From positions 1-46,058 of the forward strand of contig NZ_FOCO01000025.1 in NCBI RefSeq assembly GCF_900110135.1: a stretch of 46,058 nt of DNA. Direction: 5' to 3'. The DNA is from Pseudorhodobacter antarcticus. Its GTDB lineage: Bacteria; Pseudomonadota; Alphaproteobacteria; Rhodobacterales; Rhodobacteraceae. The notes below the pieces were generated by a model. That model worked only from the letters and a program-made list of their open reading frames with translations, was not told where the DNA came from and made no database searches. Numbering within the stretch: position 1 is the stretch's first letter; each line of letters starts with the position of its first letter. Below, in pieces: positions 4,417 through 19,458 of this stretch. The position numbers were made by a program, and so were the translations under genes.

Positions 4417-5082
4417 ATGTTGAGCGGGTTGCCCCCATCGCTGTCGCGCCCGGTGGACCCGAACGCATCGGCGCATGAACGGCTGTACCGCACGTTGCGG
4501 ATGCAGGTGATGCATGGCGAATTGCCGCCGGGCCAAGCGTTGACGCTGCGCGGCCTTGCGCGGACGTTTGGCGTGTCGATGACCCCGGCGCGCGAGGCGG
4601 TGCGGCGGCTGGTGGCCGAAGGGGCGCTGTCGCTGTCATCATCGGGGCGGGTGGCCACGCCGGAATTGACGCCGGAACGGTTGGAGGAGTTGGCCGCAAT
4701 CCGCGCGCTGTTGGAGCCGGAGCTGGCATCGCGCGCGCTGCCCCGCGCGCATTTTGCGTTGATTGACCGGTTGACCGCAATCAATGCCGCCAACAGTGAG
4801 GCGGTGGTGCGGCAAGACGCGGTGGCGTATATTCGCACCAATCTGGAATTTCACCGCACCTTGTATTTGCGCGCGCAGGCCCCGGCGATGTTGGCGCTGA
4901 CCGAAACTGTTTGGCTGCAACTGGGGCCGACCATGCGCGCGCTGTATGGCCGGTTGCGGCGCAATGAACCGCCGCCCTATCACCGTCTGATACTGGCCGC
5001 GTTGAAGGCGGGGGATGAACCGGGGTTGCGGTTGGCGATACGGACCGATGTGACCCAAGGGTTGCGGCATCTGGCCAGTTGA
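4417..5082 (+). CDS. GntR-family regulator, FadR/FCD subgroup
   Basis: A DNA-binding regulator of 221 residues. The winged helix-turn-helix spans about residues 20-75 (GLARTFGVSMTPAREAVRRL is the recognition region). The all-helical FCD ligand domain follows, with metal-binding-type residues around NLEFHRTLY. An in-frame TTG at 4405 overlaps the upstream gene. The ATG at 4417 is preferred because it lies immediately after the upstream TGA. deoD begins 66 bp downstream, so a purine- or nucleoside-related ligand is possible but unproven. I saw no operator in its vicinity resembling the TGTGATCACA palindromes elsewhere in the window. Confidence 0.85.
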   Translation: MLSGLPPSLSRPVDPNASAHERLYRTLRMQVMHGELPPGQALTLRGLARTFGVSMTPAREAVRRLVAEGALSLSSSGRVATPELTPERLEELAAIRALLEPELASRALPRAHFALIDRLTAINAANSEAVVRQDAVAYIRTNLEFHRTLYLRAQAPAMLALTETVWLQLGPTMRALYGRLRRNEPPPYHRLILAALKAGDEPGLRLAIRTDVTQGLRHLAS

Positions 5083-8167: not shown

Positions 8168-8911
8168 TTAAATCGTGGAAATGGTGGGTGCCGGTGTTGG
8201 CCACCGGGTGAACAGAACATCCATCAAGCGCGGGGCGCTGCCGCCCTTGCCATCGCCGGTCATTCGCAACACATCGCGAAATTCAAGACCGGCAGCGGCA
8301 AGGCGGCTGATGATTTGGCTGGGCGGGGTGATACCGTCAAAGCGCTGCACGAGCGACAATTCGAGTATCACAAAGTCTGTGCGTTTCAGGGTTTCAACAG
8401 CACCTTTCAGCACCTCATCTTCAAACCCTTCGGTGTCGATTTTCAGGCCGATGCGGCCTTGCATTTTGGCGGCAAGACGGTCGAGCGTGGTGACCGGCAC
8501 CTGACGGGTTTCCAGCTTGATGAATTTGCTGGCCAAACGGTCGATGCGGGTGCGCAGGCTGGCCATTGCGCCTTCCTCCCCCCGTTCAGAATGAGGGATG
8601 GTGAGGGTCATTGTGCCGGGTGTGGCCCCAAGGGCGGTTTCGAAAAATTCGGCGTCACCGGGGGCATCGGTGGCCGTAAGGGCGGCGGCGGATTCGTGGC
8701 GGGGGTCGACCAGTGCAAAGCGCGCCTCGGGGAAGGCTTGGTAAAGGAAGGGGGTGCCTTGATCAACGCCGATGTCAAAAATCACCTCGGGTAGCAGTTT
8801 GAACGATAGCAAATGTTCGGCGCGCGATTTGTCGACCACGGCCGTAAGCCCCTTGCGCCGCAAAAAGCGGTTCACCTGAATACGGTCAATTTTACCGGAG
8901 TCGGGGGGCAT
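8168..8911 (-). CDS. FkbM-family SAM methyltransferase
   Basis: About 247 residues. The Rossmann methyltransferase motif I is DIGVDQG at about 46-52, followed by FALVDPR (acidic loop for the SAM ribose). The FkbM-type block LKIDTEGFEDEVLKG lies near residue 170, and VILELSLV comes later. FkbM enzymes O-methylate sugars or other small substrates. The target here is unknown, and no glycan genes are nearby. The ATG at 8911 is used; a GTG at 8938 is in frame. It sits 12 nt upstream of sdhB within the sdh operon, so it is probably co-expressed with complex II, which is an odd partnership. Confidence 0.85.
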   Translation of the reverse strand: MPPDSGKIDRIQVNRFLRRKGLTAVVDKSRAEHLLSFKLLPEVIFDIGVDQGTPFLYQAFPEARFALVDPRHESAAALTATDAPGDAEFFETALGATPGTMTLTIPHSERGEEGAMASLRTRIDRLASKFIKLETRQVPVTTLDRLAAKMQGRIGLKIDTEGFEDEVLKGAVETLKRTDFVILELSLVQRFDGITPPSQIISRLAAAGLEFRDVLRMTGDGKGGSAPRLMDVLFTRWPTPAPTISTI

Positions 8912-8968
8912 GTCAGGCGGCCCTATCGCTGCGGGCACAGCCCGTTGAAGGGGGGAAGGGGCGTGTCG

Positions 8969-11480: not shown

Positions 11481-11867
11481 TTATTGCACAAGAATGATGG
11501 TAAGGACGGTCAACACGACCGACCCGATGATGCAGGCCCAGCCCAGTTTTTCGGCGGTGGGGATATCAAGCCCCTTGCCCGAGTCGAAATAGAGGTGCCG
11601 CAGCCCCGCGAGGTAGTGATAGCAGATCGCCCAAAGCGAGGCGGTGAACACCAGATCGCCGAACCAAGAGGTTGCCACAGCGTTTGCAAAGGCGAAATAT
11701 TCGGGCGAGGTGGCAGCGGCCAACAGCCACCAGACCGCTAAAATGGTGCCCACGATCAACCCATTTCCGGTGATGCGCGTCAAGATGGACGTGATCGCGG
11801 TCAACTGCGGGCGATAGATTTGCAGGTGGGGGGACAGGGGGCGGATGATCCGCTTGGTTTCGGCCAT
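11481..11867 (-). CDS. sdhC: Succinate dehydrogenase cytochrome b556 subunit
   Basis: The first gene of the operon, 128 residues with three membrane helices. The N-terminal SPHLQIYRPQLTAITSILTR block is diagnostic. Ser27 and Arg31 match the quinone-site residues of E. coli SdhC by number, and His84 in YHYLAGLRH matches the heme ligand. GAAGGA lies 7 nt before the ATG. A 260-bp leader upstream carries three TGTGATCACA-type palindromes listed separately. Confidence 0.96.
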   Translation of the reverse strand: MAETKRIIRPLSPHLQIYRPQLTAITSILTRITGNGLIVGTILAVWWLLAAATSPEYFAFANAVATSWFGDLVFTASLWAICYHYLAGLRHLYFDSGKGLDIPTAEKLGWACIIGSVVLTVLTIILVQ

Positions 11868-12014
11868 TGTCGTATCCTTCTTTGCTTCGCCCTGCGAGAC
11901 TTCCCCACGCGCGGCTTGCTGCTCTGCCCCTAACTAACGCATTTTCCGCCCGAGTCACGCAAAGAGAACCAAAAAACCTATGGTTTCGCACGGTTCGAGA
12001 TTAAAAAATGCTGC

Positions 12015-12045
12015 ATGTGATCACATTTAAGCGGTGTGTGATCAC
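12015..12045 (-). promoter_or_regulatory. Paired palindromic operator upstream of sdhC
   Basis: Read toward sdhC, the element is GTGATCACAC (12045-12036), ten bases, then TGTGATCACA (12025-12016). The centres are exactly 21 bp apart, so two dimers would sit on the same helix face. The second site extends to a perfect 12-bp palindrome, ATGTGATCACAT. The same layout occurs upstream of sucC. The element ends about 150 nt before the sdhC start. Regulator identity is unknown; the half-sites are contiguous, unlike CRP/FNR sites. Confidence 0.7.
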
Positions 12046-12120
12046 TTAATTTTCGTTATTACATGGGATGGTTTGAATGTCGCGCGGGGTGATGCGGCAG
12101 GGAAGGGGCTTTTTGGCGGG

Positions 12121-18129: not shown

Positions 18130-18160
18130 TGTGATCACACTTTTCAAACCTGTGATCACA
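18130..18160 (+). promoter_or_regulatory. Paired palindromic operator upstream of sucC
   Basis: GTGATCACAC (18131-18140), ten bases, then TGTGATCACA (18151-18160). This has the same two words, order, orientation and 21-bp centre spacing as the element upstream of sdhC. It ends 104 nt before the sucC start. The surrounding and intervening sequences differ from those at sdhC, so the shared part is not recent duplication. A short hairpin (TCAG-GGAAAAA-CTGA) follows. Confidence 0.7.
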
Positions 18161-18264
18161 AATGTCGAAATTATCAGGGAAAAACTGATTTTACACGAAT
18201 TCCCTTTTGAAATGGCCTGTTCTTGTGGCATGAGGGGCCAAATTCCTTATCTGTGGGACTGCTC

Positions 18265-19458
18265 ATGAACATTCACGAATATCAAGCCAAAGCCCTGCTG
18301 CGCAGCTATGGGGCGCCTGTCTCCGATGGTCGCGCCGTGACGAAGGCGGAAGACGCCAAAACCGCAGCGGGCGAAATGGATGGTCCTTTGTGGGTGGTCA
18401 AGGCGCAGATCCACGCAGGTGGCCGCGGCAAAGGCCATTTCAAGGAGGCTGAAGCCGGTGAAAAAGGCGGCGTGCGCCTTGCCAAATCGGTTGAAGAAGC
18501 GGCCGAGATGGCCAAGCAAATGCTGGGCCGCACTTTGGTGACGCACCAAACCGGGCCTGCGGGCAAGCAAGTGAACCGCATCTATATTGAAGATGGGTCG
18601 GATATTGCGCGCGAACTTTACCTCGCGCTGCTGGTTGATCGTCAATCCAGCCGGATTTCCTTTGTCGCTTCCACCGAAGGCGGGATGGATATTGAAGAAG
18701 TCGCAGCAAACCGCCCCGAAAAAATCGTGTCCTTCTCGGTTGATCCGGCGTCGGGGTTGTCCGATTTCCACGGTCGCCGTGTGGCGTTCTCGCTGGGTCT
18801 GACCGGCGGTCAGGTTAAGCAATGCGTGTCTTTGATCAAGGTGCTTTACAAAGCTTTTGTTGAAAAAGACATGGAGATGCTGGAAATCAACCCGCTGATC
18901 GTGACGCCCGATGGCAACTTGAAATGCCTTGATGCCAAGATGAGCTTTGATGGTAACGCCATGTACCGCCACCCCGATATCGCCACCCTGCGTGATGAGA
19001 CGGAGGAGGACCCGAAGGAATTGGCAGCCTCCAAGTTCGATTTGAACTACATCGCGCTGGACGGTGAAATTGGCTGTATGGTCAATGGTGCGGGCCTTGC
19101 GATGGCGACGATGGATATCATCAAGCTGTATGGCGCGGAACCTGCAAACTTCCTCGACGTTGGTGGCGGTGCGACCAAGGAAAAAGTGACCGAAGCGTTC
19201 AAGATCATCACAAGCGATCCAAACGTAAAGGGCATTTTGGTCAACATCTTTGGTGGTATCATGCGCTGTGATGTGATTGCCGAAGGTGTTATTTCCGCCG
19301 TTAAGGAAGTGGGCCTGAAGGTGCCATTGGTCGTGCGTTTGGAAGGCACCAATGTTGAAGAGGGCAAAGCCATCATCAAGAATTCCGGCCTGAATGTGAT
19401 CGCCGCTGAAAACCTGAAAGATGGTGCGGAAAAAATCGTGAAGGCTGTCAAAGGCTAA
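18265..19458 (+). CDS. sucC: Succinyl-CoA synthetase, beta subunit
   Basis: With SucD it converts succinyl-CoA, NDP and phosphate to succinate, NTP and CoA. The 397 residues show the ATP-grasp layout: [16 protein letters not shown] at the N-terminus, [18 protein letters not shown] (nucleotide lysine and loop), MLEINPLIV, and the C-terminal CoA-ligase module with [16 protein letters not shown] and [15 protein letters not shown]. The ribosome site is weak (GTGGGA). It is the first gene after the paired operator, followed by a small lipoprotein gene and sucD. Confidence 0.97.

Follow-up and report, generated by a model that had tools for sequence, protein, structure and literature searches.

The sdh and suc operons of Pseudorhodobacter antarcticus are each preceded by a paired operator made of two GTGATCAC palindromes, which keeps an almost constant distance to the predicted promoter. 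We consider it highly likely that these pairs serve AkgR, a regulator of the GntR-FCD type, two dimers of which would bind on one face of the DNA and activate both operons. Table 1 compiles the features of the window, which denotes the whole stretch of 46,058 nucleotides that was analysed; sucC is followed there by sucD and sucA.

Table 1. Positions of the operators, target genes, regulator gene and predicted promoter elements in the window.
Feature	Position	Strand	Description
akgR orthologue	4417..5082	plus	GntR-FCD regulator, 221 aa; Pfam FCD and GntR
sdhC	11481..11867	minus	heads the sdh operon (target); Pfam Sdh_cyt
predicted sdhC promoter	11931..11958	minus	-35 GTGACT (11953-11958), 16-bp spacer, -10 TAGTTA (11931-11936)
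A/T-phased stretch, sdhC operator to predicted -35	11959..12016	minus	about 10-bp periodicity in aligned sdhC leaders
sdhC paired operator	12016..12046	minus	two GTGATCAC palindromes, 12038-12045 and 12017-12024 toward sdhC
third single perfect site, TTGTGATCACAA	12122-12133	.	overlaps the DUF4344 stop codon
sucC paired operator	18130..18160	plus	two GTGATCAC palindromes, 18131-18138 and 18152-18159
A/T-phased stretch, sucC operator to predicted -35	18160..18206	plus	about 10-bp periodicity in aligned sucC leaders
predicted sucC promoter	18207..18234	plus	-35 TTGAAA (18207-18212), 16-bp spacer, -10 CATGAG (18229-18234); hexamers assigned by eye
sucC	18265..19458	plus	first gene of the suc operon, target; Pfam ATP-grasp_2 and Ligase_CoA

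The paired operator in the genome and across the family

Both operators have the form GTGATCAC-N13-GTGATCAC, with palindrome centres 21 bp apart, and a scan of the whole 3.8-Mb genome finds this exact pattern at two places only, the operators of sdhC and sucC. The original prediction had described an identical 30-bp element with two palindromes 5' of both genes; this 30-mer occurs with 0 mismatches at 12016-12045 (minus strand) and 18131-18160 (plus strand), and the equal centre distance that had been claimed holds as well. The prediction had also seen two 10-mers in the same order at both genes. These words are present, but their order reflects the flanking bases, and the core consists of symmetric 8-bp palindromes. 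With up to 3 mismatches allowed, the 30-mer has a mean count of 0.00 in 100 dinucleotide shuffles. The N13 pair with up to 3 mismatches is found 74 times in the whole genome, compared with once for the reversed control pattern; these looser matches are not taken as evidence because words resembling GTGATCAC are frequent inside genes.

The conservation of the pair was studied in 295 genomes, one per genus, with the pattern GTGATCAC-N{3,33}-GTGATCAC; judging from the named relatives, the family is Rhodobacteraceae in the broad sense. At least one exact pair is present in 268 of the 295 genomes (239/260 among the good assemblies), and the reversed control pattern in 1/295. We read 72 sites, comprising 30 loci from the scan, 40 taken by coordinate and the two of the window; they are the first listed and not a random sample. 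Thirty of them lie before sdhC and 36 before sucC. In these 66 pairs the spacer is 13 bp in 61 cases and 12 bp in five, and the centres are 20-21 bp apart in 66/66, although spacers of 3-33 bp were allowed, which points to a dedicated regulator, as originally proposed. The start codon follows the second palindrome after 107-191 bp in the sdhC leaders and after 96-154 bp in the sucC leaders. Spacers of 12-13 bp occur in 68 of the 72 read pairs, all 68 before sdhC, sucC, sucA or fumC: a spacer-13 pair precedes sucA in one locus, with mdh on the opposite side of the pair (L072), and one spacer-13 pair with centres 21 bp apart precedes fumC (L127/L194; 1994-2022 in L194). The four read pairs with other spacers (5, 10, 19 and 23 bp) have no sdhC or sucC match in their locus. 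The scan of relatives proposed with the original prediction finds the pair in their sdhC and sucC leaders, and among the pairs read nothing was seen of an equal spread over genes and random spacers, the other outcome that would have spoken against it.

Beyond the family, a class-wide scan for pairs with 12-13 bp spacers gave 5/5 family genomes versus 2/380 genomes of other families. A second set consisted of the named akgR loci, 80 out of 468 relatives, from which R. sphaeroides is absent. Eleven of the 13 testable sdhC or sucC leaders among these 80 loci carry an exact pair, with a spacer of 13 bp in ten and of 18 bp in one (L260); the sdhC leader of Szabonella alba has a degraded pair (L222), and no pair was found in the sucC leader of Rhodobacter sp. 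KR11 (L289). In three further leaders the flank is too short for the test. One sdhC palindrome is degraded in G026, from another genus.

Some genomes depart from the simple arrangement. Three palindromes in a row, each 21 bp apart, precede sucC in G135. The 2.6-Mb genome G265 has 11 pairs of varied spacings and clusters of at least three palindromes (L189, 1120-1201; L190, 1177-1319), and one of its pairs, with centres 22 bp apart, lies before a fumarase-type gene (L192, 1139-1168). Together with the fumC pair of L127/L194, this places fumarase-type genes behind pairs in two genera other than that of the window, so the regulon may include further steps of the TCA cycle.

Two explanations need no GntR-type regulator. 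The core of the palindrome holds GATC and the 8-mer is self-complementary, as would suit a methylation feature without a dedicated regulator, or plain chance; the shuffles, the genus counts and the fixed spacing contradict this explanation, which we reject as having next to no probability, in agreement with the original view that chance is unlikely. The TGTGA and TCACA half-sites recall CRP/FNR. Sites of that type, however, have TGTGA/TTGAT half-sites with a 4-6 bp spacer, and no bases separate the half-sites in any of the four copies in the window, a contiguity that the original prediction had pointed out; a CRP/FNR-type site is accordingly rejected as extremely improbable.

A third, single palindrome that the original prediction did not mention lies near the sdhC pair. 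Measured from the nearer palindrome of the sdhC pair, its centre lies 86 bp upstream, and it is the only exact copy of the 12-mer TTGTGATCACAA in the genome. Of five stretches from the same genus, four contain sdhC, all four with the 21-bp pair and a third single site upstream; the fifth (L206, 15.9 kb) has no sdhC inside. These third sites are TTTGTGATCACAAA-like palindromes (L203 10314, L204 7342, L205 13158, L207 7305), located 129 to 733 bp from the sdhC pair; two of them share with the window site the position at the DUF4344 gene end. The distances in the window and the four loci (86, 129, 129, 145 and 733 bp) show no helical phasing. With up to 1 mismatch, TTGTGATCACAA occurs at nine other places of the genome outside the window, for which ten loci were inspected (L017-L025 and L028); by a crude test, all nine lie within some ORF of at least 80 codons, and therefore no further target is proposed.

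AkgR as the probable regulator of the pairs

The regulator of both pairs is very probably AkgR, because the reported motif and targets, the gene order, the co-occurrence of gene and pair, and the GTGATCAC sites that some relatives have where akgR begins all point to it; AkgR had been named originally as the first candidate. In the window, akgR lies directly 3' of a YgjP-like metallopeptidase gene, and the GntR winged-helix (PF00392) and FCD (PF07729) domains are both over the cut-off in its protein. A regulator gene immediately 5' of sdhC was considered and rejected, the neighbour being a DUF4344 putative metallopeptidase.

For comparison we used the genome G051, which is probably R. sphaeroides: it matches 111 residues of the malyl-CoA lyase in PDB 4l9y, the R. 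sphaeroides enzyme, at 100% identity. The window AkgR is 89% identical over 210 residues to the G051 GntR protein encoded at the position of RSP_0981, a locus that we assume to be AkgR. The best named relative of this GntR protein is from Cereibacter ovatus (96%), and exact 21-bp pairs precede sucC and sdhC in G051. The genes follow the order lpd, sucB, sucA, sucD, sucC, mdh, ..., sdhC, sdhA, sdhB, gntR, matching the order from RSP_0962 to RSP_0981 in the excerpted text of PMC4344238, where the GntR-family RSP_0981 is predicted to regulate the genes of succinyl-CoA synthetase (sucCD), succinate dehydrogenase and 2-oxoglutarate dehydrogenase. GTGATCAC is found among the AkgR sites of R. sphaeroides in a portion of PMC6365646. 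The window combines the same features, with GTGATCAC 5' of the target operons, sdh, sucCD and 2-oxoglutarate dehydrogenase as predicted targets, and an AkgR orthologue in the same gene order. An ORF of the FkbM methyltransferase type lies between sdhB and sdhA in the window (8171-8938); it has no tblastn match in the stretch of G051.

The co-occurrence of pair and regulator was determined in 83 genomes, made up of all 27 pair-negative genomes and 56 of the 268 pair-positive ones; 32 of these 56 were chosen for having one pair only, a choice that works against the hypothesis. A close homologue of AkgR, defined by a best E of 1e-75 or lower, is present in 54/56 pair-positive versus 4/27 pair-negative genomes (Fisher 2.5e-14, an optimistic value given that the genomes are related). 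The two pair-positive exceptions are G019, a 91% complete assembly with a pair between mdh and sucC and a best homologue of 36% identity, and G033, whose best homologue is 50% identical. The four pair-negative genomes with a close homologue are G040, G147, G155 and G291. Degraded pairs are found before sucC in G040 and G291 and also before sdhC in G291, and G040 has a second degraded pair after mch, where sdhC would be expected and is missing from the stretch examined. In G147 (73% complete) no pair was found, degraded ones included, and in G155 no convincing pair, in both cases despite a close AkgR homologue. Intermediate homologues are seen in G122 (53%) and G281 (48%), and G021 has a short 82% fragment.

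The start of akgR itself was surveyed from -200 to +30 in 108 loci with at least 260 bp upstream. GTGATCAC is present in 23 of them, whereas its frequency elsewhere in these loci would predict 1.05, and in 19 of the 23 it lies within 7 bases of the aligned akgR start; in this region it is found neither in the other 85 relatives nor at the akgR of the window. In a genome of another alphaproteobacterial family (G448, L146 992-1020), the gene immediately behind a 21-bp pair encodes a GntR-FCD protein 31% identical to AkgR, and thus the same paired site accompanies a distant AkgR relative; on its other side is a gene with a signal-peptide-like start. The other out-of-family pair (G503) overlaps an inositol-monophosphatase gene.

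A rival possibility is that the pairs are bound by another GntR-FCD paralogue whose recognition helix resembles that of AkgR, either in its place or in addition to it. The genome holds 14 FCD proteins over the cut-off, many relatives have a second homologue of about 35-42% identity, and the G448 regulator may use the same palindrome too. According to the excerpted text of PMC6365646, PS417_07240, a GntR protein of the deoxyribonate cluster of Pseudomonas simiae that is 32% identical to AkgR, is likewise proposed to bind GTGATCAC; it differs in serving another pathway and in having no pair, since the gene for this regulator carries one palindrome, at -47 to -40. Against a paralogue stand the location of akgR at the RSP_0981 position, the GTGATCAC sites at its own start, and the tracking of the pair by the close AkgR homologue, the one homologue that the comparison covered. 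We judge a paralogue unlikely and retain AkgR as the regulator.

Distance to the predicted promoter and A/T-phased DNA

An unsupervised two-block motif search in 31 sdhC leaders (30 and that of G051) yielded GTGACA-N16-TAnnnA, which starts 57-60 bp past the second palindrome in 24/31. Four well-scoring exceptions, at 48, 69, 78 and 79 bp, are about one or two helical turns off, and the remaining three (L048, L064 and L133) have the lowest scores of all 31. For sucC, a gapless alignment of 37 leaders shows T at columns 47 and 48 in 33 and 31 of them, with weaker columns at 70 and 72; columns 47/48 likely mark the start of the -35 element, about one turn closer than in sdhC. An unconstrained motif search in the same 37 leaders returned a block that is not promoter-like, at offsets from 8 to 61. 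Runs seeded near offset 44-53 gave CGTTTA as the best block, mostly at 44-45 and with 18-19 bp spacing, and in the best-scoring run the first block lies 2-3 bases before the hexamer assigned by eye. Because the seeded runs converged on CGTTTA instead, the hexamers given for sucC carry less certainty than the sdhC ones. The word "sdh" is absent from the main text of the R. sphaeroides start-site paper PMC7471390.

Between operator and promoter, the A/T content of the 36 sucC and 30 sdhC leaders varies with a period of about 10 bp, and 0/2000 within-sequence shuffles reach the observed power at 10.5 bp. When only the N13 rows are taken (32 sucC and 29 sdhC, the rows being related), the periodicity power is 0.74 and 0.78 downstream of the pair, versus 0.04-0.05 and 0.004-0.02 in two upstream flanks of equal length. 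The scores per sequence are above those of control regions 5' of neighbouring genes from the same loci (p 1e-5 and 3e-8); this control set is small, with 71 regions in total, some of which lie within operons. The A/T periodicity may be a general property of the strong promoters of the family.

According to the mechanism that we propose, two AkgR dimers would bind the GTGATCAC palindromes two helical turns apart on the same face of the DNA, as had been suggested originally, with their centres at about -86 and -107 for sucC and at about -97 and -118 for sdhC relative to the predicted start. From these positions AkgR would activate the sdh and suc operons, while the A/T-rich DNA at each turn probably bends or offers landing places for the C-terminal domains of the RNA polymerase alpha subunits. 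Binding by AkgR, activation in Pseudorhodobacter antarcticus, DNA bending and any effector are inferred.

AkgR could also bind and repress, as a roadblock or by exclusion. The direction of regulation is unreadable from sequence, and autorepression would fit those relatives in which a site overlaps the start of akgR. On the other hand, about 47-60 bp separate the sdhC and sucC pairs from the predicted -35 downstream of them, an activator-like position, and AkgR is termed a transcriptional activator in the excerpted text of PMC6365646, which cites Imam et al. 2015. Repression thus seems improbable, and activation by AkgR is the preferred reading. We further suggest, tentatively, that the control regions of sdh and suc may constitute one conserved device, formed by paired dimers, four to five turns of A/T-phased DNA and the promoter, in which activation would need curvature or alpha contacts. 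It is possible, as part of the same proposal, that changes in the length between operator and promoter survive mainly as whole helical turns.

Relation to known systems and meaning for the family

The closest solved GntR-FCD structure by sequence is that of E. coli McbR (PDB 4p9f), a weak match (E 5e-20) to a protein that regulates other genes. CceR, presumably RSP_1663, was considered as the regulator and rejected, its motif being [A/G/T]GTT N6-8 AAC in contrast to the palindrome GTGATCAC. The motif of RSP_1663 is taken from the excerpted text of PMC4344238. CceR is a LacI-family protein, and its reported or predicted targets in R. sphaeroides likewise include succinate dehydrogenase along with other genes of central metabolism. 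The AkgR regulon of R. sphaeroides, as far as the excerpted sources describe it, has the same GTGATCAC, the same sdh, sucCD and 2-oxoglutarate dehydrogenase targets, and an orthologous GntR in the same neighbourhood. The kind of regulator, its targets and the palindrome are already known, and the addition made here is the architecture. Neither the 21-bp pairing nor the phased stretch was found described in the literature searched; the primary AkgR paper (Imam et al. 2015), outside that search, may have the pair. A text search for TGTGATCACA, covering titles and the beginnings of abstracts, returned nothing pointing to an sdhC/sucC operator.

For the main operons of the TCA cycle, these results provide a concrete regulator, an operator geometry and a predicted location of the promoter in most of the sampled genera of the family. 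The pair is a usable signature to predict AkgR targets, for example fumC in two genera, and its strict spacing and promoter distance make it a clean test bed for a GntR-FCD activator that acts at a distance. If the device proposed above is true, the family would possess an unusually rigid activation architecture for a far-upstream activator of the GntR type.
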